From: Saccoglossus kowalevskii
Taxonomy: Eukaryota; Hemichordata; Enteropneusta; Harrimaniidae
NCBI RefSeq assembly: GCF_000003605.2
Contig: NW_003141318.1
Coordinates: forward strand, 97,646-156,881
Length of the DNA stretch: 59,236 nt
Direction of reading: 5' to 3'
The position numbers were made by a program, and so were the translations under genes. Position 1 is the stretch's first letter. Every line of letters begins with the position of its first letter. Positions 11,000 through 37,692 of this stretch are shown here, piece by piece. The notes under the pieces are model-generated. The model was not told where the DNA came from, made no database searches, and saw only the letters and a list, made by a program, of their open reading frames with translations.

Positions 11000-11909
11000 T
11001 TATAATCATTATACATCTCATCACTAAGCAATATATCGACCCTAAATATTTCAAACAATTCTCAACTTTGGAAATGCTATCACATACTATTTCTAACATA
11101 TACTACTAATCACTGTGCCAAAAGAATATTGTTTTTTTCTTTCGCACCACGGATGAAATCAACCAAAAATTAGCAACAAATTAAAGCAGAATTGAAAGCC
11201 ATAGTGACCATTTACTATCACAAATGCATCTTCAAAAACGGACTTTAGAAAGGTTTACTGAGATGAGGTTTATTAAGTTTAGCACTTTTAAACAATACAG
11301 TTCTCATACAAGAATAAAACGCAGGATATTATATATTTAGAACTGTTTCTTTACTGTTTATCAAGAATGATGCCCGCTAGATAACAAATATTTGAAATTC
11401 AATTAGATGGATTTGAAGTCATTCGCATTATCTTATACCATTATTAGAATTTATGTCTCGTTAGATAATAAACACATTCTGCTACAAATGCTCAATCCGG
11501 GTAAATTATAAAGCAATTACAAATACATATATTGAATTTGTTGTATTGTTTCCTTCCAGTGCATTCTCCGCGGCGTAACAAGACATCAACAGACATTGAA
11601 ACACCGTTATTGGTTCAACTATTAGCCTATTAATTGTGAAGTTGAGTGAACAACAACGTTATTATGTTACAGATGCAAGTCGATCTGCTTATAAGGATTA
11701 AATCCATGTAAAATCGTTAAACATCGAAATTTAACATACAGTGAACACAAAAACATCATTATTGATAGTTTTATCAAGTACTTTCTCAAGAAGTGACTTA
11801 CGTAAATAAGTATCTCAAATATTGACAGTCACCGATTCGTTTATTCTACTCTGTATAACTGGGGCAGTCGATATAGGCATCTACTCTATTGACCTGAATT
11901 TCCATCAAC
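11000..11909. other. 5' flank of the GPCR gene
   Basis: No exon or repeat of note was seen. The receptor needs no upstream coding exon because its first ATG precedes a complete N-terminus. A 5' UTR intron cannot be excluded, and no confident TATA box was identified. Confidence 0.4.
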
Positions 11910-13046
11910 ATGGCAAGCATCAATACAACGGAAACAGTGAATGTAGGATCCTGGATTTTGTCATCTGACAGATTTCTCACTGAAGACCAAACGCTGATTA
12001 TGAATATCACAATGGGAATTCTGGGAATTGTTGGTAATTTTATTGTATGTTTTGTATTTCTGAGGGTAAAGTCCCAATTACGTACACTCACTAACATGTT
12101 TATTCTAAACCAATCAGTACTTGACCTGTTTACTTCAGTTGTCTTTCTGATTAGAAAAACTGGTCCGCGTATTGTTGTGCCTGTCGGGGTATTGGGTGAG
12201 TTATATTGCAAACTGTGGAAGTCTGGATATACTACCTGGTCGTTGTTAATGGCGTCTTCTTTGAATCTAATCGTACTTACACTAGAACGCTATTTGGCAG
12301 TGGTTCATCCCATCAAACATAGAAACAACATAACCAAACGAAAGGTCCAAATTGTTATTCCGTTCATATGGGTAGTTCCGGCCTTACTGGAATTGTTTTG
12401 GGCATTTGCAAACTATAATGACGGCTTTGGAAACTGCCGAATTGAGTGGTACAGTAAATTCGTAGCTAAGTTTTCGGGTGTTATTTTCTTTCTTTTGGAG
12501 TTACCAATACCTCTGGGTGTTATCATAGTCGTGTACACCCGTATAATATTTCAACTATTGAGCAGGTCGCACAATCAAGAGACACGGGATAATGAGGTAT
12601 CTTGTTCTGTCAAAAGAGACAATAAATGCCTCCCAGAGGCACAAAATTGCAGTGAGGCAAATTTACGTGTTTCTCTTACTACAGGGGGTAATTCTGTAAA
12701 TGTGACCAGGAAAGATAAGGCAAAACAGAAGCAAGATTCCTCTTTCGATCGTTCACGCAGGAATGTCACTAAAACAATGTTCATTGTCTCTGTCGTGTAC
12801 GTAATTTGCTGGACACCCCAGTCATTTTGGTTTTTTCTTTTCAATGTCACGGAGACCGTTCCACTATACTCCCGTTTCCATGACATCGCCGTGCTATTGG
12901 CATTTCTAAATATGTGTGTAAATCCCGTAATATATGCATTCCAATATCGCCAGTTTAGAATTGCTATTATGAAAGCGTTCAATTGTCCTATTAATAAGAT
13001 TGCCGACTCATCCCATGAATCGAGATTTGCCAATACAGTCACCTGA
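11910..13046 (+). CDS. Rhodopsin-class (class A) G protein-coupled receptor, neuropeptide-receptor-like, single exon
   Basis: An intact 378-residue seven-helix receptor. Visible landmarks are N-glycosylation sequons in the short N-terminus, N43 in TM1 (GNFIV), D72 in TM2 (LDLF), the disulfide pair C100 and C176, ERY at 126-128 at the end of TM3 in place of DRY, CWTP at 300-303 in TM6, and NPVIY at 338-342 in TM7 followed by FQYRQFR (helix 8). The third intracellular loop (about 215-285) is long, basic and rich in Ser/Thr, typical of phosphorylation and G-protein contact. The family responds to extracellular peptides or amines at the plasma membrane. The overall look (LERYLAVVHPIKHR, NMCVNPVIYAFQYRQFR) recalls the large orphan galanin/allatostatin-like groups of invertebrate deuterostomes, but the ligand cannot be named. 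A poly(A) signal AATAAA lies about 200 bases downstream (near 13254). Decayed paralogues flank it on both sides. Confidence 0.93.
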   Translation: MASINTTETVNVGSWILSSDRFLTEDQTLIMNITMGILGIVGNFIVCFVFLRVKSQLRTLTNMFILNQSVLDLFTSVVFLIRKTGPRIVVPVGVLGELYCKLWKSGYTTWSLLMASSLNLIVLTLERYLAVVHPIKHRNNITKRKVQIVIPFIWVVPALLELFWAFANYNDGFGNCRIEWYSKFVAKFSGVIFFLLELPIPLGVIIVVYTRIIFQLLSRSHNQETRDNEVSCSVKRDNKCLPEAQNCSEANLRVSLTTGGNSVNVTRKDKAKQKQDSSFDRSRRNVTKTMFIVSVVYVICWTPQSFWFFLFNVTETVPLYSRFHDIAVLLAFLNMCVNPVIYAFQYRQFRIAIMKAFNCPINKIADSSHESRFANTVT

Positions 13047-15519: not shown

Positions 15520-18500
15520 CTAATTAACTAAGTGGGGGCAAATATAGGAAAACATCAAATATAATTCTTGGAATAATACTTGACTAGCCATATGAACTGT
15601 ATTTGTGTAAGGGGCAGAAAGTGCCATATCCCATACATCGAGAAAGATCACACCACTTCCCCAGAATACACGACGAACCATTCTGTTCATGTTATAAAAA
15701 ATCCAATTACTGCTGTGGATTGATTGCTCCAAGTAAACGTTGTCCCGGGCATGTGCTAGTTTAATCACTACTTTGGATTTGGGACATCTTTTCATCAATC
15801 TATCAATTGCTAACTTGGCGCGGTAGATTCGTTGTAAATAAGACCGAGTAGACCACACTCCATAGTGAAAACAGAAGTTGAGGACAACTACTGGAGTCTT
15901 CGCGCGACATTTATCGATTGTTATATTGTCTAACAAGTCACTTTCAAGTACCAGATTCCAGAAATAAGTAGTTGGACCACCAAAACGTGGCACAACCATA
16001 TTATTAACAAACTTCTTATGAAAACGTTGGTTCATTATAGTGCCAAATTGCCAAACTGTAGAATCTCCGCTCACTACAAACTCTGTATCCGACAGACACT
16101 CGTCAACTTCTTGTACTGACCACTGCTTGCTACGACACACCAGGGGAACAAATGTAATGTTATCATCCCAGTAACCATCTGATAAAGGAACGGGTAGATC
16201 AGGACCACACAGAGGTATGTCTAATTGTGGCGGTTTAGCATCTGAAAAATTAACAATAGCAGAACTGTCAAGCATGAAATTCAAATAGATGCGATACATC
16301 ATGCGATCCATGTGGACATATATGCTCACAGAAATACCAATACAACTTGTATACTTTCACAGGGTGAATATATATTACTAGTATAAACTCGGTGATCCTA
16401 GCATCAATCTAATATTGTTTGCGGAAACAATGTGTATTCTTATTATACATCCCTGCCTATATTCTACTCAGGCTTGTATCAAGTTGAAATAGTTTCCTTT
16501 AGTGATGACACAGGCGTCTTGTTTCATTTAAAAGGACTGGACGATGGATTCAGAATAGATATACAGCACAAGAAAATTGAACATAACTATACTATGGCCA
16601 CAATTATTTGAAGAAAAAAGAGCAGATTCAAAAATATTTATAATGATTTTAATATTTAATCAATGATAAATATTTGAATTAGAGTATGAACACATAAATC
16701 TAAACCATGTACTAACCTAATATATTTATTGATAATGGCATGCCGTGAATAATTCCGTTAGTGTATTTCCTGCAAAATGTAATGTATTATTACTGTATTT
16801 CAGTATATGTATCGTTCTACAATTAAACTGTACAAAATAACACAGTGCCGCACATAATAACATCCCATATTATAGGGTACTGTACCTGCTGAATAGGTAT
16901 TGATAACCTTCAGATGCACCTCTGATAATGTCATCTAGGCGTTTACCTGATGCGTGCATATTATATACTTGATCACATTTGTGACTTTTTGGTTTATCGC
17001 AGATGATTTTAGTGTCCCCCATGGAGTTGGCATTGCTGTATTCACATTTGTTTGTCCACACTCCTTCGGTGTTAAGAAAACACTCGATCGTTTCATTTTT
17101 AGCATTTTTAGCAGTATCTTTGTAAATCATCTTTGTATGCAAGAGATCATGGACCAGTTGAACATCTTTTAGATAATTGATAGCTTCTCTGGTATGAGTT
17201 AGTGCAATAGTGATATCAGCCTTTCCGGTCCATGCTGCATATAAATATACAGAGTATGTCCCATTTCCATAGTCGACTGTACGACCCGCTGTGCTCTTCT
17301 GCATATTAATATTTGACATAACGGATGAAAAATAATCACCACCTTTGTTTCTCTTACGGTCATTTTCGTCAAATGTCTCAACAACTAGATGGATGAAGCT
17401 CCCTTTCTGGATTGCTTTCTTGTCATAGACAGTCACTCTGCAAACATACATGAATATGAGATTATGAGGGTAATACAATGTTTCATTCAAAACTTGAGTG
17501 GATGAATAATGACACAAAGATAAATGGGATTCGAACCATGATAACGTAAGTACTCTCCTCAGGTCTCCACCACATTAGAGTCTCGATGGTGTGCGAAAGG
17601 AGAAGTGATGTAAACATTATGCATTCATGGTGCGTACATTTATTGGTAAGTCATGTATTGTCGAAGCAGCCTATATAAATAATTTCGCAAAGGAATAATA
17701 TTAATAAGTTAATATATGGACATGCATACAAATCATGATGTGACTGGTGATGGAAAATTAAACTCCTGTAACCAGACATGACTTTATGTGTCGACTTTAA
17801 ATGTAATCTACATGTATGGCAATGTTTGTTTTACTCATGGATAGGTAAAGGTATCTACAACCTATCTACCAGATTTAGGCTGGTGATGTCCAGACTGCGC
17901 ATGGCACGTAAATGACATTTTTACCAATATTTACAGGAGGGGGTCAAAACGAGCGGTTATATAAAGCAAGACATAGGTCTCATATGTTTACAAATGTGCA
18001 CATTTGCACATGTGCACAATTTATCTTTGTCACTATGACACAAGTAATTAAACAGTACTACATGTCTTACAACATTCACAACTCTGTACCTATGTCACAT
18101 TGCGGTACTATCCCACCCACCTATCAGCCTGTGACTTGTTTCGCGAATCAGCAATAAATCACAACTTAAAACATTTTTTTTTCGTTATTTTGTATACTTC
18201 ATTTAAGTACGGAAAAGTATATGGTCGGCATTACCGCTCGGCCGATGTATACTAAACTGTCTATTTTGTCATGCGCCTTGCCCATTATATATGGGATGTA
18301 TGTATCCCCTAATGCCTTGACATTGGTTAAGTTGTTTTCAAAGTCATTTAAAATGTATGAAAATGTGTAATATAAAAATATCCATGAGTTCATGAAACTA
18401 AGGGTGTTTAACTGAGATTCAAGAGACAAATAGTAATTTTCTGAAAATGCAAGTTACAAATCTAGTGATAATTGTAGGCATGGTAACGTGTTGATGGTCT

Positions 18501-21500
18501 TATAAACTAAAATCACTGAGCGTGATATGCAGCACGGTTATGTGAGGGTAAGTGTCATCGTTCGCATATATTCGGTTTTCTAAAGTATACTGGGCTACAG
18601 TTAAAGTCCGAGTCAAAACTATCTTCCTATGACGTATTTCCTTGATAATAATTTGTTTCTGTTTATTGGACAATTAGAATATTTCTCTATGAAGCGAGTC
18701 GTATTCAACTTTCTTTATTCCAAGTAACAATTGAATGATTTATAAACCAAGCTGGAATAAATTTGATATTGTTGGATAAGAGTTTCACAATAAATTGTAC
18801 ATGCAAACAAACAAACAGATAAATATTACAACATAAAATAGAATTCGAAATCACGATCACGGCAATCGATGCTGGACTTCAGGTAAACGTACTATCTACC
18901 ACGCCACACAAATATTTGTTTATTTCTTTAATATAAAAAAACTACTTCCATCGCTAATTATAAGATACAAAATTAAATTAACGCTGATGTACGTGCATGA
19001 CAGTATTACATTTGCCACTGCAAGTATTCCGGGATTCAGCAACACAAATATCATTGCGCCCTCATGTTAGTAGTACGCATCAAGAAGATGACATTCGTTT
19101 ATTTTTTTCAGATTAGACAAAATGTAGAATCCGATAAAAAGAATATTAGCAAAAACATTGCATTTATTATTACTATTTCTCACAGTGTAAACATTTCGGA
19201 ATTTATACTTTCCGTGTTATTATGCTTTTCATATTCCAGGTTTTCTATGCTACGGGAAAACGGCCGTATTCATATAAAGCATATTATACGAACATCTTCA
19301 GTTAGAAATTACCACACATTAAGAACATGACAAGCTTTGTTCTTTTTTCAAGAATATGATTTTATTGGTTCTATTCGAGAGTGTTTGCGTCATATTACAA
19401 CTATTTACACATTGTTATCACACATACCTTGTCTTTTCTGTTGATGTCATTCCAAGGGAACCTTCTCCAGCATCGAAAGGTGTCCTTTGTTTTGTCGTTG
19501 TTCTACTGCGATGGGAATTAGACCATTCTAATTCATCAACAATTGCTACCCATTCCATTCCATATCTGTTATATTTGTTGTATGGATACATGTCATTGTT
19601 CGTATGTGTATTACTTTCTGTCTTAGGCACGGAAGATGGTATTGCTTTTTGTGGGCATATTTCACTGCAGACGACTGTTGTGTTCACTGTCTTTATTTGG
19701 TCGTGGCTTAGTGGTTTGGCGGCCAAGTGTTTTGATTTTTCTCTCTTTGCCTCTTGTGCACATTCTTCGCTACAGTCATACTGTATAACTGGTTCTCTCC
19801 TGGCTGGTGCAGGCACTGCATACTGTTTGAATGGACGGTGTTTCTCGTGTATCAAAGGATTCTAAGAATATAATAGAAATACACATGTTACATTCCTGTG
19901 CATGAAATTGTAAATTGTAGCACTTATGCTCAATGAAATAATCACCTCATAAGATGATTAGATATTTCATCGTATTGAAAAAAATCAAGTGAATATTTAA
20001 AATTAAATCCGACCTCACCCATCGAGGTTATATGAACTAACTATATTAACGTATTCATTAGAAATACAAAATCTGATGTTGATATAACGTTTATATCATT
20101 GATCTGTTGTAAGCGTGTAATTATGTATATATTTAAAATAAATATTAAACATAGTGACAACGTTATACTTATATTATAAACATGGCGTAACATTTACTTG
20201 AGCAATTTAGACAGACCAAATAGCCTATTAAATCCTAAAGACAAAGAAGGAAAAATAATAGCAATAGATTGCGCATTAATCAATTTACAATGTTCAAAAT
20301 CAAGTGTAAAATGTCACCTGACCGTCACTAATATCGATATGCTATAAAGTGTATACAGTCGATCAAATTACTTTCTTAATTTATAATGTCAATTAGTGTG
20401 AAAGGATTATTAGCTCATTATCAGATTGTGGCCAAGGTCCATGTGATAACAGTGCGGCTATCAGCCGTCGATTGTACACAAATATAATATCAATATCTTG
20501 CAACAAAGAGACACAAATCGAGACAGATTAATGTGTCTAGTCGACTATGCAATAATTTCGTGCCGTGCTTGATCCAAATTAAACTGGCAAAGTCTGGACT
20601 TTCACACTTTCACACACGGTATAGTAACACACCGGTAGAGTAATACACTGGTATAGTAACACACCTGTTTAGTAATACACCGGTATAGTAACACACCGGT
20701 ATAGTAAGACTTCGGTATAGTAATACACCGGTATAGTAAGACCCCGGTATAGTAACACACCGGTATAGTAACACACAGGTATAGTAATACACTGGTATAA
20801 TAACACCCCAGTATAGTAACACACCGGTATAGTAACACACCGGTATAGTAAGACACCGGTATAGTAACACACAGGTATATTAACACACTGGTATAGTAAG
20901 ACATCAGTATAGTAACACACCGGTATAGTAAGACATCGGTATAGTAATACACCGGTATAGTAACACCCCAGTATAGTAACACACCAGTATAGTAACACAC
21001 TGGTATAGTAACACACACTGGTATAGTAACACACTGGTATAGTAATACACCGGTATAGTAATACACCAGTATAGTAATACACCAGTATAGTAATACACCG
21101 GTATAGTAATACACTGGTATAATAACACCCCAGTATAGTAACACACCGGTATAGTAACACACTGGTATAGTAAGACACCGGTATAGTAATACACCGGTAT
21201 AGTAATACACCGGTATAGTAACACACAGGTATATTAACACACCGGTATAGTAATACACCGGTATAGTAACACACCGGTATAGTAAGACATCGGTATAGTA
21301 ATACACCGGTATAGTAACACCCCGGTATAGTAACATACCAGTATAGTAACACACTGGTATAGTAAGACACCAGTATAGTAACACACCGGTATAGTAATAC
21401 ACCAGTATAGTAATACACCAGTATAGTAATACACCGGTATAGTAATACACCTGTATAGTAACACAACGGTAGAGTAACACACCAGTATAGTAACACACTG

Positions 21501-24500
21501 GTATAGTAACACACACCGGTATATTAACAAACTGGTATAGTAATACACACCAGTATAGTAATACACCGGTATAATAATACACCGGTATAGTAACACACCG
21601 GTATAATAACACACTGGTATAGTAACACACACCGGTATAGTAACACACTGGTATAGTAACACACTGGTATAGTATCACACCAGTATAGTAATATACTGGT
21701 ATAGTAACACACCGATATAGTAACACACAGGTATAGTAATACACTGGTATAATAACACCCCAGTATAGTAACACACCGGTATAGTAACACACTGGTATAG
21801 TAACACACACCGTATAGTAATACAAATTTTCGACCCAACAGAAGTAGACATGCAGTTTTAGTGACCGAAGTATTTAACTATTATCTGACAACATGCAACG
21901 CTCATAATTCAAAGTTTCTGAAAAAATGACATTTGATGTGCGAGGAAAACAAATTTACTTACACCATAGAAACATTTAGAAGTTCCATACTTTTCTCTAA
22001 GTTCACTATTTTCCTCTTAAAGTCAGTCAGTGCTCAAATTCGTTATGACCAACTAATTGTTTGAATTTAATACCAAAGTTACATCACAAATGTTTTATTA
22101 ATTTAGCTGTCAATCATGCTTTTGATTACTCTACCAACTTGGTAACAGTACAAAACTACTGACCTGATTTTTTTGTTTTCACTGGTTCGTGCGCTAATTA
22201 TACAGTGGCTTCACTGTAAAGGGGTTAACATGAGACTGTATTCCAAACTCTCACAGATGAGGGGGCATTAAATCACATGGAGAATTTTATTTTGTTAAAC
22301 TAGTATAGTGCAATGCTATTTTACGCTAACATTACATTGGTTTATTTTGTAACTTTGATGATGCTGTCCGGTGCGGATTATGGAGTGGGCACAGGCATTC
22401 TATGTGAAAAGAGTAATACGTGACCCGTTCAATTAAACAAGATTGTGCCTCATTGGATACCCAGCCCCAGATTCAAACCAATCCGAGATCAGGTTGTTTG
22501 TTGACAAGATTGTTTGACCTATCAAATCTGCTTTGTATATATGCATCGACTCAACTACCCCTTCAAACCCACGTATATTCGGAAATCTGCTTGCTTGATT
22601 CTAACTGTATTAGAGAGAGCGCAAAACATGTCACATCTGACGAAAAAATAAAGCGTATTTGTTACATGCGAACGGGGGGGGGGGTATTACAATAAAGGAA
22701 ACACTACTGCTAAAACCACGTGACAGAATAGTTTCCGGCATCGTTGAAATAACCCATATATGGATTTATATTGCTATTCAGTGTGTTGAAACAATAATGA
22801 TCATAGTGATATGTGTATTATATAATTATTACATATTATTCTTGTTAAAATAAGTATGTGACTGTCCACAAACATACGAGATCATTTAATTATTTTTATT
22901 TATTGCAATGGTATTTTGACGCAGATAAAACCAATTGAACGGCAAATAAACAACGGTTTATTTTTTCGTACAATGAGAAAAAAAGGCTTTATGAGAATGC
23001 TGTAAAACAAAACCATCTCACTTGTCTTTTCATGTCTACTGTTTCGTGTAATCAATTAAATTGTTTGAAAGGATTTACATTTACGCTTCAACTAATCACA
23101 TTTATATTCTGCAACAGATAACATATACTAAACAGTTTTTTATTAGTTTTGTATTTAACGCCTGTTAATAAGATTAATCATAAACAGCTTGTTTGTTGAC
23201 ATTTTTTTTCAAATTTGCCTTGTATATTTGCATCGACTCAACTACAACTTTAAACCCTCCTTATATTCCGAAAAATGCTTGCTTGATTCTAGCTGCATTG
23301 GAGAGAGAACTCAACATGTCATATTTGACGAAACGTACAATACGGATAGTTTCCGGCTTCGTTGTAATAACCCAATATGTAAATATATAGTGCTAACGGA
23401 TTCGGACATGTTGTTTGGGTTAAACTGTGGCTAGCGTTGACACCAATATAAATGAAGGACCTGTCAGTGTGTTGAAAAAATTATGATCATAATGGTGTTT
23501 TAATATGTTACTAGTATTATTTAATTATTCTTGTTAAAATAAATGTGTGACTTTTCAAACATATTCGAGGTTATTTATTGTTTGCAGGTAAACGAAAGGG
23601 TAGTTTGACGCATATAAAACCAATGAACAGCAGAGAACGATTATTTCATATTATTTCGCATAGTGAGAAAAAAAAAACTTAGGAGATTGCTGTAAAACAC
23701 AGCCACGTCACTGATATACTCATATCTACTGTTTTGGGTAATCAGTTAAATTATTGTGTGAACGGATTTTATATTTACGCTTTAACGCACATTCAAATTT
23801 ATTCTGTGCGACAGAAAACAGATTAAACTGTTATATATATACAGTTTATATTATTTTTGCGCCAGTCGTGCGAGATGGTCATACGATTCGAAAGTAATAC
23901 GAAACTCTGGCGTTAAACATCGTTCATAGCCCATGCATCAGTAAATGACCTCCTACCCTCCAGTGAGATTTTCAAGACAGTGTTTCTTTGGGAGGATATT
24001 ATATATTGAGTGTATAATAAAAAAAAATATTAGTACGGGAACTCAGAGCATATATAATATCATGACGTTACACACTGCCGACATCGTATTTTGTTATTGC
24101 ATCTGAATATGGATAAATATGATTGGTTAGTATTCGTAGGTATTTGTGAGATTTATGTGATAATGAATTGTATTTCGTGAATGGATATCTAATGACGTCA
24201 GAATAAACCAAAGAGAGTTTTTAAATCATTTTCTGGCTTTTATTATTGACTTATACATGTAGATATTACCTCATTTTATATGAATACGTATGCAAAAATC
24301 TCTGAAAACTTATTTTGATAATGGGTATGTGTCATAAATAGAATGCCGTCTTTTTTTGTTTTCATTATATTGAATTTACTATATCTGTGAGCGAGAGGCT
24401 GGTAACGTACATGTGAAATCATCCATAAACAACAAATGAGACAATCTTTAGAGGTTATTAATTGAATTTCAAATTGAGGTATTAAGTTATCAACGTTGAG

Positions 24501-27599: not shown

Positions 27600-28838
27600 A
27601 ACAGTACTTCATAATCAGGTCTGTGAGTGGGATATTTTGTTTTGTAATAAAATAAAGGAGAGCAAATTCTTCGATCTGTAAGTAAGAGATATACTTAGTT
27701 TATTCGTCAGCCATGTTAACTGTTGGTATGGCGTAGGTACAAGTACGTCCGTTGAGTTTTGTGAATAAAAGTGACCTCTTTGCAAATTCTGAATCAGTTT
27801 CCACTGTAGGTAAACTATTAAGACCATGCGCACGATCGTTTTTTTGAGGGAAACATATTTTTCGACAGTTTTTATTTTTAGTTTCACATATAATCACCAT
27901 TAGTACATGTATAAAAAGATACTTGCTTACTCAGTGTAATTTACATTAGATTATTTAATTATATTTAATCTACAGGCAATGACTAATTGCTACAATTATG
28001 GGTATATCAATATCAATTTTAATCACATTTGTTTTCAAAACCTTAATTTAATATAGTTAAAATATGGTTGGATTGAAATGCATCTCTGTATAGGGTTGCC
28101 ATTGAATTGGATTTTCATTAAAATGGGTAAGTTTGGTAAGGTTAAATTAAATTGAATGTAAACTGTACCATACCTTATCCCTTTACTAAGCCTATGCTTT
28201 GCATACTTGAGTTAAATTCGATTATATATTAATATACGTATTGAAAAATAGTGAAGGACATCACTTGCTGGTCATGTGCGTGTGCTTTTGGGTGTATGAA
28301 ATCAAATTTGTGACAACTTTTATTAAATAACACACGCCCACCTGAGCCTGAACATGAAGTTCGGTGTCGGGGTTTTACATTGACAGGGCAAGGTTTAGAC
28401 AAACAATTTTCGGCGAATTGCTTTACATAAATACTGTAACGGAAGTATTGTTTAATTGTCCTTCCTTGACCAGTTCTTTTTGTGACCTGTGACCAGACAC
28501 AAGTCTAGGAGTGACATACTTTCACCCAGAAGTCCCTAACTGGTTTAAAGAACCCACCATTATAACACCAGCAGAAATAAAAATGCAATAATTAGTATTC
28601 GGAATTAGAACTAAGGGGTTCACAGAATTAAAAACAAAAATAATTTGCACATAGAAAAAATCACGGAGAGATTAATATAAACAAAACCTGCATGAAATTG
28701 TTTCTCTGGTGTCACACACAATTGAATAACAAAAAGGGAGCGAAATTATCGGGGGTAACACAAAAGTAAGTGAAAGAGAAACAATTTGAAAAAAATTTGT
28801 TTTCATTGTGGCTTCATCATCCCTAACTTTCGTCGGTT
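27600..28838. other. Intergenic interval before the LINE fragments
   Basis: No gene was seen. The part at about 28440-28810 resembles 35640-36010, the 3' flank of the tryptophanase gene, with common blocks such as TTGAATAA-AAAA-AGCGAA and AAGTAAGTGAAAGA. This suggests an old duplication of that flank. Confidence 0.45.
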
Positions 28839-31410
28839 TTGAATGAATTGTTTTCAAAGCTAGGTGACAATAATTTTATTAATTATGTAGGTCAGTTTGA
28901 TTTTGTTTGTTTTGTAGAGACTTGGGTGTCACGTGACAATGATATATCGATAGCAGGTTTTGGAGCATTGCATGTAACAAGGCAAAAATTTTCACAATTG
29001 GGTAGGCAATCAGATGGTATCTCGTTCTTTTACAAACGTCCAACTAATTTGCGCATCCAAAAACTTACAAGTACATCAGATAACATTCTTTGGGTGATAA
29101 TTGCACCAAGCTGTTGTTGTAATTGTCCAAAAATGTTATTGTATACAGATCACCTATTAAGTCATCTGTTTATGCAAATGAATGTGTTTTTAGATATTTT
29201 AGAAGATGAGATCGCAATGCATACTGACACGTACCCAAAGTCCATGCTAATGATAGCCGATGATTTTAATGGAAGAACGGGTGACCAATTAGATTACATT
29301 ATGAATGATGACGTAATGTACTTGCTTGTTTCGGATGAGTATGTGGCAGATTCCGCATTGCCAAAACGACGCCCGTTTGACACTGAGGTTAATACTTATG
29401 GTAGGGAATTCTTGGAATTTAGTAAAAGTACTGGTGTTAGGATTATTAATGGGAGATTATTTCATGATAATGATAGTGGATTTTATACATGTATAACACA
29501 TAGCGATGCGAGTGTAGTTGATTATGTCATGGTAAAGGAAGACGACTTCCATTTGTTTGATATTTCAGTGTGGTTAAACGCTCAGAATTGGAGCACTTGT
29601 TACTTAATTATACGCTCAGAGGAGCATGCATCGTTGGTTCACAAAGAGGACAAAATTGGAATAACAATACAAACGTTTTGCACTTACCGACTCCATATGT
29701 TTGGAATTCAAAATTTGCAGATCGTTATAAAACTAACTTTATTAATGATGAGATTAAGACGCGTATTGCTGAATTACATAATGCAATTGATACTGGACTT
29801 GTTGATGAGGCCAATGACGTCTTAATTGACATTATTAAAAGCTGTGATTATGGCATGTTAAAACAATGGAGTACACAACATTTTACTTAGGAAGTAGAGA
29901 AAAATGGATGGTTTGACAACGAATTTCTGAATAGGAAAAAACAGGTTAACACAATTTTAATCCGAAATAATAGAAGTGAGGAAAGGTTAGTAAAACTTCG
30001 CAAGGCTAAAAAGCAATATAAAAATATTATTTCATTAAAGAAGGAGGAATATCATCCTTAGATGTGTGAGGAAGTTAAATCTGCAGCAAGGGAAAGAAAT
30101 TCAAATGGATTTTGGTCTTTTTTTAAAACCAGCGTGCATAGCCCATCTGAGAATATATCTTCTACGGAGTGGTACGAGTACTTTAAATCGCTTTGTAACC
30201 CAATAAGTATGGTAGCAGACCACGGACTGGCAATGATGAGTTTTATGAATTAATTAAAGAATTTGTAGATAATGTCGATATGGGAAATACACAAGAATGT
30301 ACTGACTATGTAATATTATACACGCCCATTACTTTAGATGAGATTAAAACTAGTGTTATCAAAATGTCCAATGGTAAGGCTTCTGGTCTGGATGGTATCA
30401 CTGTTGAATTTTTAAAGAACGCACTAGTCTTTATATTTGAATATATACGTCGACTATTTAATATCATTCTGGAAAGTGGTAATTTCCCTAAATCATGGAC
30501 GGGATGTATGATTTTCCCGATTCATAAAAAGGGTGCTGGAATCCATCCTAATAATTATAGAAGTATTACCTTGCTTTGTGTCCTTGGTAAAGTATTTACC
30601 CAGATTATATGTGTAAGATTGCAAACATGGTTTGATATTTATAGTAAAACAGTAGAAGAACAAGCAAGCTTTAGAAAAGGATATAAAACTGTAGATAATA
30701 TTTTTATTCTAAGCACAACAATTAACAAGTATGTGCATGTGTCGATTTCGACAAATTAAATCATTATGTTTTGTTTTATGAATTAGCAAAAACTAGATTG
30801 TGGGGTAAGTTATTTAAATTATTGTATTCACTACATCGCAATATAACAGCTTGTGTTAAAACGTCACATGCATCTGATGCTTTCAACTGTAGTTCCGGAC
30901 TTCAACAAGGCTCGGTTATCTCTCCACTGTTTTAAAACCGTTTTTGGGTGCGAGAGTTATTTACTTAATTTTGATAGATCACATTTGTTAAATGTGCTTT
31001 GTAAGTTTAGAATATCAGCACAAATTTTACATATTGAGAAAGGCAGGGGACAAAACGTTTCTAGAAATGAACGCTATTGTAATTTTAGTCGTGATATCGT
31101 TGAAGACAGGTTTCATTTCCTGTTATGCTGTCCACTTTATTCTGACATATGGAAAACATACTTACCAGCTTATTATTATACTTACCCAGATCAAATTATG
31201 TTTACTAACTTAATGAAAACAAATAACAAACATTTACAAAGAAACATAGCATGCTATTTAATACAGGCATATAAAATACGAGATAGTATTTAAAAAATGT
31301 GTTTTTCTTTTCTTCTGTAACCTTTACTAGCACTTCTTGTACTTATTATTTTTGTAACATTCTTTGTAAATAAGGCCGGAGGCCAAAGTACTGAATAAAT
31401 TATTTATATA
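28839..31410 (+). mobile_element. LINE copy A: non-LTR retrotransposon, 5'-truncated, with an internal deletion
   Basis: The first open segment (28839-29825) is an apurinic-like endonuclease: FDFVCFVETWV, then IADDFNGRTGD and SVVDYVMV. After a frameshift near 29570 a linker follows, then the N-terminal part of reverse transcriptase at 30280-30759 (MSNGKASGLDGITVEFLK, HKKGAGIHPNNYRSITLL, EEQASFRKGYKTVDNIF). Near 30930 the reading jumps from QGSVISPLF straight to the C-terminal zinc-knuckle-like tail (CNFSRDIVEDRFHFLLCCPL, 30853-31293), so about 1 kb with the catalytic YADD box is deleted. Several stops and frameshifts interrupt it. No ORF1 was seen. The 3' UTR ends in a family-like tail (GGCCGGAGGCC) with AATAAA. 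The clade is not resolved. Dead copy. Confidence 0.9.
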
Positions 31411-32600
31411 TTATAAAACATAAAAAAACTAATGTCACTCAAACATTTCCGTTTCCGTATTTCAATACTATTTCTGGCTTGAACGGGTTCGATTTTCCGC
31501 GTCTAACGACCACAGAACACAAAGGCACTAGTAAGTTTATACAATTAGGCATTTGTAGTGTAATCTAATGCCTCAATAACTTTGAAAGTACAGCACTTTC
31601 CTAGCGTACATCATGCATGTTTAAATTAATTTAATTAACCAAAATTTTTTTGTTAGATTTACGTGGAACGTGTTATTAAACTGATTAAAGTAACAGGGTG
31701 AATTAAGGTAGAAGTCTACTCATGATTTCAAATACTTAGAATTAATTCATTTTACAATAAATCATACTTCCGGGCAATATGGACTTTAAAATGGTTTAAT
31801 TTTCGAGAATATGATGGTTGTATTTTAGAGGATAGTGGTGATTTTGGAACTCATATAACGATTTTACCACAGGTTCATATTGTAGGCTGGTGACATAGGC
31901 TAACAAAATGATATACTAGTATTGTAAATGGTGGAGGGCTTTTTGTTGACCTCAATTATTTTAAAAAAATTGGGTTTAAAAGGGGCAAAAATGTAATTTG
32001 TCGTTAACATTGTGCTCTATGGAACTGTTCTAAAAATAGCATTATTTGAAAAATATAATAAGTAACGCGTATCAAACTGCTCGGAGTTCGTTCTTAGCTG
32101 ACACAGCGCTACCTGTGACGATACAACAGATGATAGACGTCTTTCCCGGAAGTCCCAGATACGACGTTTCGCATGCGCGCGCATACCATTTAGGGGTGCA
32201 ACATAAACTTGCACGTGTGATATTGTGCTTCTGGATATACCAATCGACGTCACAAAAATAAAATTCCCTTTTTTCGTCTGTCAGCAAACTGACATGTTTG
32301 TATTTTAGGTCATGACAAAGCAGGAAAGCCGGTGCAAATAGCTAAATTCGAGGAAATAGCACAAAATCAACTTTGAAGTAGTCCTATACACCAAATTTAT
32401 ATATGTTGAACATGCAGTACCATTTGCTGGGAGTTTTTCGGCCTTTGTTTTCACCGTGATGGTTGCCAGGTGGTGAAAATGCCCAGAAGTCCGCCCGAGA
32501 ATACTGAGCAAAATAGTAAACAGCGCCCTCACAAGTTATTTTTTTTTAATCTAACAGATACAGTGTTTGTTTTGCTAATTATTACTTTTAATTATTATGT
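31411..32600. other. Interval between LINE copies
   Basis: Contains copy 3 of the dispersed ~80-bp repeat (inverted, 32430-32511). No host exon was recognised. Confidence 0.5.
32430..32511 (-). repeat. Dispersed ~80-bp repeat, copy 3 (inverted)
   Basis: The reverse complement matches 6072-6150 closely, including TGGCAACCATCACGGTGAAA and ACAAAGGCCGAAAA. Confidence 0.75.
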
Positions 32601-32639
32601 ATTAGTTTGTTAATTGTATTATAATTATAAATGTAATAA

Positions 32640-34880
32640 CACGTGTTGCACGGACAATTGGGTTAGTGTTGTTGATTACATAATCTTAGGTAGCTTGTTT
32701 CATTTTGTTCGTGACTTCTTTGTTGATACTATTGATGAGTCAGATCACTTTCCTATACAATTTACGTTACAGTTTTCTGCGGTCAATACTGTGATAGGTG
32801 TAACAACCATTTTTGCAGACAACTTAGAAGTTTGGGAGAAATGGAAACCAGATTTGTGTTTGGAGTTAATAAATAAATTTCACGATGAAATCGGCCAACA
32901 CTTACTAACGTTTCAACAAGCTATTCAGCAGGTTGACACACTGAAAGCCGTCGACATTCTAACAGGTATATTATTTAGAGCTGGGGCTTGAATGAAGGTC
33001 TCAGGGAAAACAAATTAAAAAAAATAAAATGGAAAATGCAAATAGTGCATTGCGGTGGGACAAAGAATGTGAAGTTTTGAGAACAAGGAAATTTGAGCTT
33101 TTAAATTAATTCCGCAAAATGATGATGCACTTAGAAATTATATTGGAATTAGAAAAGGAAGAGATTGTAAGTTTAAACAACGTAATACGTTGTTACATTG
33201 CACGCAGGGTAATTTTTAGGGGGTGGTTACAAAAATTAAGGGCGGGAAACGGTCTGTTTTCCCAGAGAGTAATATCAGTTCATTAGATTGGTTTAACTCT
33301 TTTAAAGAATTGCTTAATGTATCACCAGAAAATATTGACGTAACTTTTGAAAGCAACATTATTGACAAATTACAAGAACACGACTCTCATTGTGAGTTAT
33401 GTAAATATAATGTACCTTGAGCAGTCAACAGTGACATCACATTGCAAGAGGTCACAAATAGTATCAAAAGCACAAGGATTGGGGAAGCACGTGACGGAAT
33501 TGTAAATGAAATGCTTAAGCATTGTGGTGACAGCGTGCATCAAAGTCTGTGTCATTTATTTAATTTAATTTCGGAGGCAAAAATACCCACTCAGCTGGGG
33601 AAAGGGAATTACTTTCCCGTTACACAAAAAGAGAGATTTTAACAACGTCTCTAATTATCGTGGTATTTCGTTGTTGTCGTCAGTGAGTAAAATGTTTACT
33701 AAAATTATAAATGACCGTCTAGTAAAGTGGGCTGTAGGAGATGTCATTATCGTTAAGACACAAGCAGCCTTTCGTAAAGAGCACATCACTTTTGACAATA
33801 CGTTTTCACTACAGTGTTTAGCTCAGAAATATCTGTCACGAAGTGGGGGCGCAAGTATTGTGTCTTTATTGACTTTTCGAAAGCTTTCGATCGTGTTAAT
33901 GGATTGCATGGCATAGTTCTGACAACCCTGCGGACAATGTACAGCGAAATTAAATCTTGTGTTCTGTGTAGTGGGCGACTTACAGAATATTTTGGCTGCC
34001 ATATAGGTACAAGACAAGACTGTATGCTAAGCCCTTTCTTATTTAGTTTAATTGTTATTGAACTTGCTTTCTTTATGGATAAGCGTTATAGTGGAGGTAT
34101 AAGCGTCACACATGATTTCACAAATATGGATATTTTACTGTATGCTGACGATTTTGTCGATGTATCGGATATGCCTATTCTACTGCAGAGAAAGTTAAAT
34201 CAGCTAGGCCAATTTTGCGATCATTGGGGCATGACGGTAAATCTAGATGAAACTAAAATTGTAGTGTTCCGCAACGGTGGAATGTTGAGATCTTATGAAA
34301 AATGATCATACAAAGGCATTCCAGTTAAGACAGTAAAACAATACAACTATCTGGGTTTATTATTTTCATCAAAATTATCCCGGACGCCGGCAAGGGATAA
34401 CCTTACAGTCAAGGGGAAAAGAGCGTTATATCAAATACAGGTTTTCACTAAGAATCTTGGTGGTCTTCCCATAACTGAAGCTTTTAAGGTATTTGATGCT
34501 TCAGTTGTCCCAGTAATTTGTTATGGGCTGAAATATGGGGTTATGAGTACTCCATAATTGTGGAGAGGGTGCAATTTATTTTTTTGTAGATTTTTATTAG
34601 GGATTAACTCTAATGTAAATACTGAAATGATTTTAGGCGAATGCGGGAGATTACCCATTTTCTGTACTTACATGAAACGTTGCATTTCATACTGGTTAAA
34701 GCTTTTAAAAATGGATATGCACCGGTATCTTAGGGCCTGTTATAAAATGGTTAAAAGGCTGGACTCAGCGGGAAGGGTTACGTGGGCAACAAAAATCAAA
34801 GAGTTACTGTATCGATACGGTTTTCGAATTTTATGGATTGAACAACAAGTTGGAGAAAGCAAAAATTTCTTAGGTTTATT
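32640..34880 (+). mobile_element. LINE copy B: same family, retains the polymerase core
   Basis: It starts inside the end of the endonuclease (DYIILGSLFHFVRD, then ESDHFPIQF with the conserved SDH), so it is 5'-truncated. A linker follows, then reverse transcriptase in broken frames: KMFTKIINDRLVKWA and AAFRKEHITFDNTFSLQ at 33671-33916, then CVFIDFSKAFDRVNG, DCMLSPFLFSLIVIELAFF and LLYADDFVDVSD (the catalytic YADD) at 33814-34305. The post-polymerase segment is at 34558-34890 (SYWLKLLKM). Multiple frameshifts and stops are present. The C-terminal zinc-knuckle tail that copy A keeps is not found. Same family as copy A but clearly diverged from it. Confidence 0.9.
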
Positions 34881-34910
34881 CTCAGACTAGTAATGTATTA
34901 CTAGTCTGAG
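34881..34910. repeat. Perfect 14-bp inverted repeat with 2-base loop
   Basis: CTCAGACTAGTAAT, two bases, then the exact reverse complement. It lies at the 3' limit of LINE copy B and would form a very tight hairpin. The coding-like text of the LINE runs directly into it, so it may mark the truncation point. Confidence 0.85.
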
Positions 34911-36112: not shown

Positions 36113-37692
36113 TCAATAACCGTTTTGCTTAATATCGTCGGATTTGTTCCTCCTATTCTCACTCGAGATCTTTTCCAGTTTCACGGTAAAATGGCGCAGA
36201 CGCGTCGATTCCCACGATATTCTAAGGCCGGTATAATTCTCAGCATGGTCTTTCACGTATTTGTGAACATCTGCAACGTACCTCATATGGGAGCGGTTAT
36301 ACACCCGCCGTGGTATGCACAGACGGACAAGCTCCAGACCGACTGCTTTTTCACTGCCATTCGGCTGCTTCCCTTGCAGTAATGAGCCTATCTCAAAAGC
36401 ACGTATCCCACCTTCCAGAAAAAGCGCACCACAAAGAGCCACCCCAGGATACCCCAAGGATGGTATGTGTGGAAGTACAGAGGTGGCGTCGACGTAGACA
36501 GCATGACCTCCAGTCGGGTGTACAATACGAATACCAGCTTCGATGAGAAGTTCGCCTAAATAAGCAACCTGTCCGATGCGATACTCGAGGTATTCTTCAT
36601 CGAGGGCTTCCATGAGACCAACAGCGATAGTCTCCATTTCACGACCGGATAAACCCCCATACGTTGGAAATCCTTCTTTCAATATCAAATCCTGTCGGCA
36701 TTCTCTGGCGAGATGGGAGTCGCGTAGAGCCAGGTAACCACCAATATTTGCAAGGCCATCTTTCTTTGCGGACATGGTGCACCCGGCTCCATAGGAAAAC
36801 ATTTCCCTTGCGATTTCAACTATAGTTTTGTCCCGGTATTCATCTTCATATTTTTGTATGAAGTAGGAATTCTCGGCATATCTGCACGCATCAAAGTAGA
36901 GAGGAACGTTGTACCGCTTACAGATGGCTGAAGTGTCTCGTATGTTAGCCATACTAACTGGTTGGCCTCCTCCTATATTATTGGTCACCGTCATTATAAC
37001 AAAACATACCCGACAACTGTTAGTCACTAGTAACTCTGCAAGCTTAGAGATGTCAATGTTACCCTTGAACTTGGCGTCCGTGAATATCGTTTCTTTTGTA
37101 AATGATGGTATATTCATGACAATGCCGCCGTTGTTTTGAACATGGGCCCCTGTCGTGTCAAAGAATCCGTTGCTGATAGCGATATCACCTTGCTTTACGA
37201 CGTTGCAGAAGAGAATGTTTTCGGCAGCCCTTCCTTGATGTGTGGGCATTACCTCATCATAGCCAGTGATATATTTTACGGTCTTCTCAAGTCGATAGTA
37301 ACTTGGCGATCCAGCGTAGCTCTCCTCGCCTGATAAAAATTAAATAAAAGATTATAACTTGCAATCTCACATGCGGTACGTGTAATCGTATAAAGTAGTG
37401 AATGGCATGTGGTATATGATTGTATTTTGTCAAAATTTCAGGCAAACGCATATAGCTGACATGTACATTTTTTCTTACCTCTCATTAGTGCTGACCACTG
37501 TTCTGTACTCATTGCCGATGTACCCGAATCAGTCAGTAAATCAATCATGACGTCATCTGCCTTTATATAAAACATGTTATTGTGAGCCTCTCTCAGGATC
37601 TTTTCTCTTTCTTGGCGCGTTGTGGTTTTTATCTTTTCCACCGTTTTCACGCGGTAAGGTTCGAACTTTGAGAAATGGGACCCGTTGGCCAT
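36113..37692 (-). CDS. Tryptophanase (L-tryptophan indole-lyase), two exons
   Basis: Exons 37479-37692 and 36113-37329 (minus) join through a 149-bp GT-AG intron (AGAG/GTAAGA ... TTTTATCAG/GC) into 476 residues, close to the ~471 of E. coli TnaA. The start is the ATG at 37692 (MANGSHF). The enzyme uses pyridoxal phosphate to split tryptophan into indole, pyruvate and ammonia. Visible landmarks are DLLTDSGTSAMS, GSPSYYRLE, PTHQGRAAEN, GGQPVSMAN, CTMSAKKDG (PLP lysine K261) and EGFPTYGGL. The residues that separate tryptophanase from tyrosine phenol-lyase are all of the tryptophanase type: D129 in FFDTT (Thr in TPL), I385 in FEIGS (Arg in TPL) and H451 in LRHFT (Phe in TPL). A 17-residue polar tail follows the bacterial end point. 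There is no signal peptide, so it is probably cytosolic. No stop or frame break occurs and the coding part is visibly less AT-rich than its surroundings, so it appears functional. A bacterial-type enzyme in an animal locus implies horizontal transfer followed by intron gain. Confidence 0.95.

Follow-up and report, generated by a model that had tools for sequence, protein, structure and literature searches.

The acorn worm Saccoglossus kowalevskii carries an intact, intron-bearing gene for tryptophanase (tryptophan indole-lyase) in a 59,236-nt stretch of contig NW_003141318.1 (hereafter the window). From the comparisons below, we consider it probable that a functional tryptophanase gene passed from a bacterium into an ancestor of the acorn worm and has gained its intron since. 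The enzyme would convert L-tryptophan to indole, pyruvate and ammonia. If so, this animal would in principle be able to make indole, which is commonly regarded as a signal of bacteria, and host production would bear on how animal indole is told from microbial indole.

The minus strand carries the gene; the preliminary description of this DNA gave the right coordinates without the strand. Splicing of the two exons (Table 1) would yield a product of 476 residues, or 477 codons counting one terminal stop, with zero internal stops. The intron runs from GTAAG to TTTTTATCAG (GT...CAG), and the exon 1 frame, if unspliced, runs into a stop within it. Gly72, the residue that the intron cuts, sits in the conserved block R-G-E-E-S-Y-A-G, which is gap-free in the three relatives first aligned. 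We scored splice choices against three references (loci L085 and L007 and PDB 1ax4), admitting GT-AG introns of 40 to 599 nt that keep a single frame open between the ATG of exon 1 and the terminal stop. Among the 89 open choices, the 149-nt intron had the top score against each reference. The two runners-up, whose donors lie 12 and 18 nt downstream, would add 4 or 6 residues and scored 14 to 16 points lower. These results bear out the earlier claim of a full-length gene with a GT-AG intron in matching phase. By inspection, the N-terminus has no obvious signal peptide and the C-terminus is NGY; the enzyme may therefore be cytosolic.

All relatives found for this protein are bacterial, archaeal or viral, as would be expected of a bacterial contaminant or a mis-assembled bacterial contig. 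We reject this explanation as extremely improbable, in agreement with the preliminary description. The GT-AG intron lies inside a conserved block, and the window, which contains zero N, joins the tryptophanase gene without a gap to a G protein-coupled receptor (GPCR) gene, NXPE exons and a reverse transcriptase. A profile search of the genome for the tryptophan synthase beta chain (trpB) gave no match, and all 14 of 14 control genomes matched. For three bacterial groups, sampled by 387, 395 and 398 genomes, none of the matches listed exceeded 56% identity. A contig scan of genomes, which used two N-terminal patterns only as query, returned 22 loci, the best at 55%.

The window protein belongs to Pfam family Beta_elim_lyase (PF01212; 231.6 bits, 1.6e-68, gathering score 27 bits) and to the NCBIfam tryptophanase subfamily NF009709 (633 bits over residues 10-460, cut-off 285). 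The gene identity and the family matches are far beyond chance. Our structure model, which is limited to the 404 complete codons of exon 2 (pTM 0.86), has the same fold as bacterial TnaA (EC 4.1.99.1), with identity over the model of 44% to the Proteus vulgaris enzyme (1ax4) and 42% to that of E. coli (2c44). All catalytic positions checked fall in exon 2. In the alignment, the pyridoxal phosphate (PLP) lysine, which is the second K of SAKKD, and the catalytic Tyr, Arg, Asn, Asp and Arg are all kept. Unlike TnaA, the window gene has an intron, and its product continues past residue 460 or so in a C-terminal tail.

A protein of this fold could instead be a tyrosine phenol-lyase (TPL, EC 4.1.99.2) or a beta-lyase with another substrate, releasing phenol or cleaving cysteine-type substrates rather than releasing indole. 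Tryptophanase and tyrosine phenol-lyase both also cleave S-substituted cysteines. The phenol-lyases of Citrobacter freundii and Erwinia herbicola (1c7g) share the fold and the catalytic positions checked, and in the structure comparison phenol-lyases and tryptophanases reach equal Z. The NCBIfam TnaA and TPL models score nearly the same (486.3 vs 486.6 bits), the latter (TIGR02618) below its cut-off of 720.7. Three positions, which we take to set the specificity of the two enzymes, point to tryptophanase. They read D/I/H in 3 of 3 aligned PDB tryptophanases, among them 1ax4, and T/R/F in 2 of 2 aligned PDB phenol-lyases. The window protein has D129, I385 and H451, and our alignment of 96 rows confirmed that these residues and the PLP lysine are present, as previously described. 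The phenol-lyases also form a separate clade (100/100) in our tree, and an approximately unbiased (AU) test rejected joining the window protein to seven phenol-lyase rows (p 0.018), a group that, like those in the AU tests below, we chose with the tree already in view. Release of phenol would suit the bromophenols reported from enteropneusts (King 2018, PMC6315191). Residues and tree nevertheless favour tryptophanase, as proposed earlier, and phenol-lyase or another beta-lyase activity is unlikely.

To place the gene among its relatives, we built a careful tree from 52 of the 96 aligned rows, with no eukaryotic row besides the window protein. Of 124 loci, L025 was dropped as a short match only, and 33 of the remaining 123 were set aside: 7 that a kept row contained or matched exactly, L003 because it is nearly the same as L002, 13 from a side group that is 37-40% identical to the window protein, and 12 Bacillota-group loci to limit tree size. 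The window protein fell inside a 30-row clade of bacterial tryptophanases (support 98/99) with members from Bacteroidota, Verrucomicrobiota, KSB1, Bdellovibrionota and others. This supplies the bacterial part of the tree check that had been proposed for this gene. The closest clade members among the matches listed were L085 (56%), L007 (55%) and L011 (49%); clade members are single open frames without introns, and there is no close sister among them. Proteus TnaA falls in a separate clade, and the AU test placed the window protein outside that clade (joined to 1ax4, L137, L142 and L064, p 0.002). Joining it to L089, L062, L007 and L056, three from the Verrucomicrobiota search and one from the Bacteroidota search, was not rejected (p 0.126). 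Relatives were found in 47 of the 387 Verrucomicrobiota genomes sampled (phylum of L007), 139 of 395 from Bacteroidota (phylum of L009) and 145 of 398 from Bacillota (phylum of L014), with best identities among the matches listed of 54%, 56% and 53%, respectively. A further 82 plasmid and 3 phage records matched, all below 60% identity. The tree is evidence of bacterial-type ancestry within the compared sequences, not of the manner, number or date of any transfers.

The side group just mentioned comprises Verrucomicrobiota-group loci L066-L084. Its six aligned rows (L066-L071) carry the T/R/F triad, with Leu at the Arg221 position and Arg at Lys260, and their substrate is therefore perhaps different.

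The gene might also be an old eukaryotic one that descended vertically and was lost in most animals. This possibility is compatible with a working tryptophanase, and its probability overlaps with that of the reading we favour. Besides S. kowalevskii, Table 1 of Boya et al. (2021, PMC8537960) has eight anthozoans, two octopuses, Limulus, Priapulus, Folsomia and Drosophila as tnaA carriers. The carriers in that paper span cnidarians, molluscs, arthropods and a priapulid as well as fungi and protists, a spread that would fit vertical descent. The distribution in that table is patchy, however, and the window protein nests among bacteria in our tree, in which it is the one eukaryotic row. We give vertical descent a minor but real chance.

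The long terminal branch would suit a relic, silenced not long ago or out of use and open by chance, and we infer activity, like expression, cellular location and biological use, from the sequence. A relic is very unlikely: exon 2 has 404 codons without an internal stop, and each catalytic position checked is kept on a branch of 1.34 changes per column.

Several results weigh against a functional tryptophanase acquired from bacteria. The best bacterial identity among the matches listed is 56%, and along with the length of the branch, the sister of the window protein within the clade is not settled. The protein scores below the cut-offs of the TnaA equivalog models TIGR02617 (486.3 bits, cut-off 825.8) and NF053783 (528.5 bits, cut-off 750), which places it outside the narrow TnaA equivalog groups. 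In six of its seven departures, it differs from a residue on which the five PDB rows, both tryptophanases and phenol-lyases, all agree. Two further results concern metabolism. Tryptophan dioxygenase exons lie on two contigs (12 matches, 11 above cut-off), and the ordinary kynurenine route for tryptophan is therefore present. A search for flavin tryptophan halogenase (PF04820), which did not extend to animal haem peroxidases, found no match in the genome at E 0.001; 5 of 14 control genomes matched. The latter result speaks against a complete animal route to haloindoles.

Transfer of a functional bacterial gene still appears the probable explanation, and the gene is likely to be single-copy. A PF01212 profile search of the genome (572 Mb, 4830 contigs) returned the tryptophanase gene and one exon on another contig (L006). 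We rejected the latter as a second copy, as by eye it looks like threonine aldolase, and a whole-protein search of the genome, in which the best candidates were scored, matched this gene only. Since S. kowalevskii appears in the table of Boya et al. and only one copy was found, the window gene is very probably the one listed there (PMC8537960). That paper places the species under 'higher eukaryotes' with tnaA and enters indole production as n/a; its results section contains neither an intron or active-site analysis of this gene nor an indole test, and the word 'intron' is absent from the paper's text. Thus the preliminary description overstated the novelty of the gene, while its account of an intact, intron-bearing tryptophanase gene of bacterial type in an animal genome was upheld. 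To the printed record we add the exon layout, the support for the splice sites, the residues that bear on specificity, the number of copies found, the clade and the genomic surroundings. The gene was already known; its interpretation is plausible and now has more support than it did.

What the enzyme might be for is suggested by the chemistry of acorn worms. As no trpB was found, recycling of indole through tryptophan synthase is not expected; indole would probably be either a final product or a precursor, and its most likely use is as a starting material of the indole-type chemicals that accumulate in enteropneusts. Bromopyrroles have been reported for S. kowalevskii. Among the papers listed in our literature searches, none showed halogenated compounds, haloindoles included, for this species itself. 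The origin of the bromo- and chloroindoles in enteropneusts is described as unknown, and bacteria isolated from a Ptychodera have documented halogenase genes and activity (King 2018, PMC6315191). Given these two points and the lack of a PF04820 match, a split pathway is a fair hypothesis, in which the host would make indole and peroxidases or bacteria would halogenate it. It is a tentative and rather doubtful step further to propose that acorn worms make their own indole with a gene acquired from bacteria as the animal-encoded first step of halogenated indole chemistry, and that this defence chemistry is a trait of the host and not of its symbionts. With a concrete host gene in hand, host versus microbial origin of acorn worm chemistry becomes directly testable. 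A tryptophanase is also reported from the transcriptome of another marine animal, the muricid mollusc Dicathais orbita, where it is proposed to feed halogenated indole pigments (PMC6562550); we liken the two by description only.

The neighbours of the tryptophanase gene are given in Table 1. Frames at 28827-34890, around the reverse transcriptase, are LINE-type (long interspersed nuclear element) by eye and had no Pfam match. A tandem array of a 16-nt unit repeated 75 times occupies 20611-21824 and is open in several minus-strand frames. Frames of locus L037 (5268-5873 and 8542-9216) resemble by eye the NXPE/neurexophilin exons of the window, which suggests that such frames form a local array.

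Table 1. Features of the window, with positions counted from its first nucleotide
Feature	Position	Strand	Details
Exon 1	37692-37479	-	214 nt, ATG start; residues 1-71 and base 1 of codon 72
Intron	37478-37330	-	149 nt, GT-AG, phase 1; splits Gly72
Exon 2	37329-36113	-	1217 nt including TGA; rest of codon 72 to 476
Asp129 codon	37157..37159	-	Thr in PDB tyrosine phenol-lyases (alignment)
Lys261 codon	36761..36763	-	PLP-binding by homology; K in 96/96 aligned rows
Ile385 codon	36389..36391	-	Arg in PDB tyrosine phenol-lyases (alignment)
His451 codon	36191..36193	-	Phe in PDB tyrosine phenol-lyases (alignment)
Rhodopsin-type GPCR, animal gene	11898..13046	+	One open frame; Pfam 7tm_1 9.9e-41
NXPE C-terminal and neurexophilin-like exons, animal gene	15520..17574	-	NXPE4_C 1.3e-32, Neurexophilin 2.5e-14
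Reverse transcriptase fragment, LINE-type by eye	33796..34305	+	Pfam RVT_1 2.1e-14

Features elsewhere in the assembly, namely a peptide and the mitochondrial gene order, point to the hemichordate S. kowalevskii or a very close relative as the host. The vasotocin-type peptide CFISDCARG is encoded in a frame (CFISDCARGGKR) that precedes a neurophysin exon by about 2.5 kb, and CFISDCARG-NH2 is a Saccoglossus kowalevskii peptide (PMC7181382). The mitochondrial contig (17,037 bp) has COX1 (Pfam) and an ND6-like frame on one strand and the remaining frames, which we named by eye, on the opposite strand, and its tRNA-Lys has the anticodon UUU. An inverted COX1 and UUU are described for the S. kowalevskii mitochondrion, and CUU for Balanoglossus (PMC3121625). 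The same source reports no AGG codon in the S. kowalevskii mitochondrion; we counted one in a set of 12 stop-to-stop frames, which overrun the true gene ends.

Open tryptophanase frames also occur on four contigs of the viral collection (L001:275-1627, L002:2992-4344, L003:3001-4329 and L004:2992-4344). These contigs are 7-97 kb long, and the parts fetched have 32-34% GC. On L004, the tryptophanase frame is directly followed by a panD (aspartate decarboxylase) frame (Pfam 4.5e-37), with dihydroorotate dehydrogenase and adenine methyltransferase nearby; this neighbourhood is a possible phage-borne metabolic cassette. By tblastn, tryptophanase-like frames were found in Campylobacter phages A11a and A18a (MG065691 and MG065686; 43% identity) and in phage record MT836576 (47%). 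On a plasmid of Streptomyces sp. NBC_00470 (L140), a tryptophanase gene directly adjoins a tryptophan dimethylallyltransferase gene.
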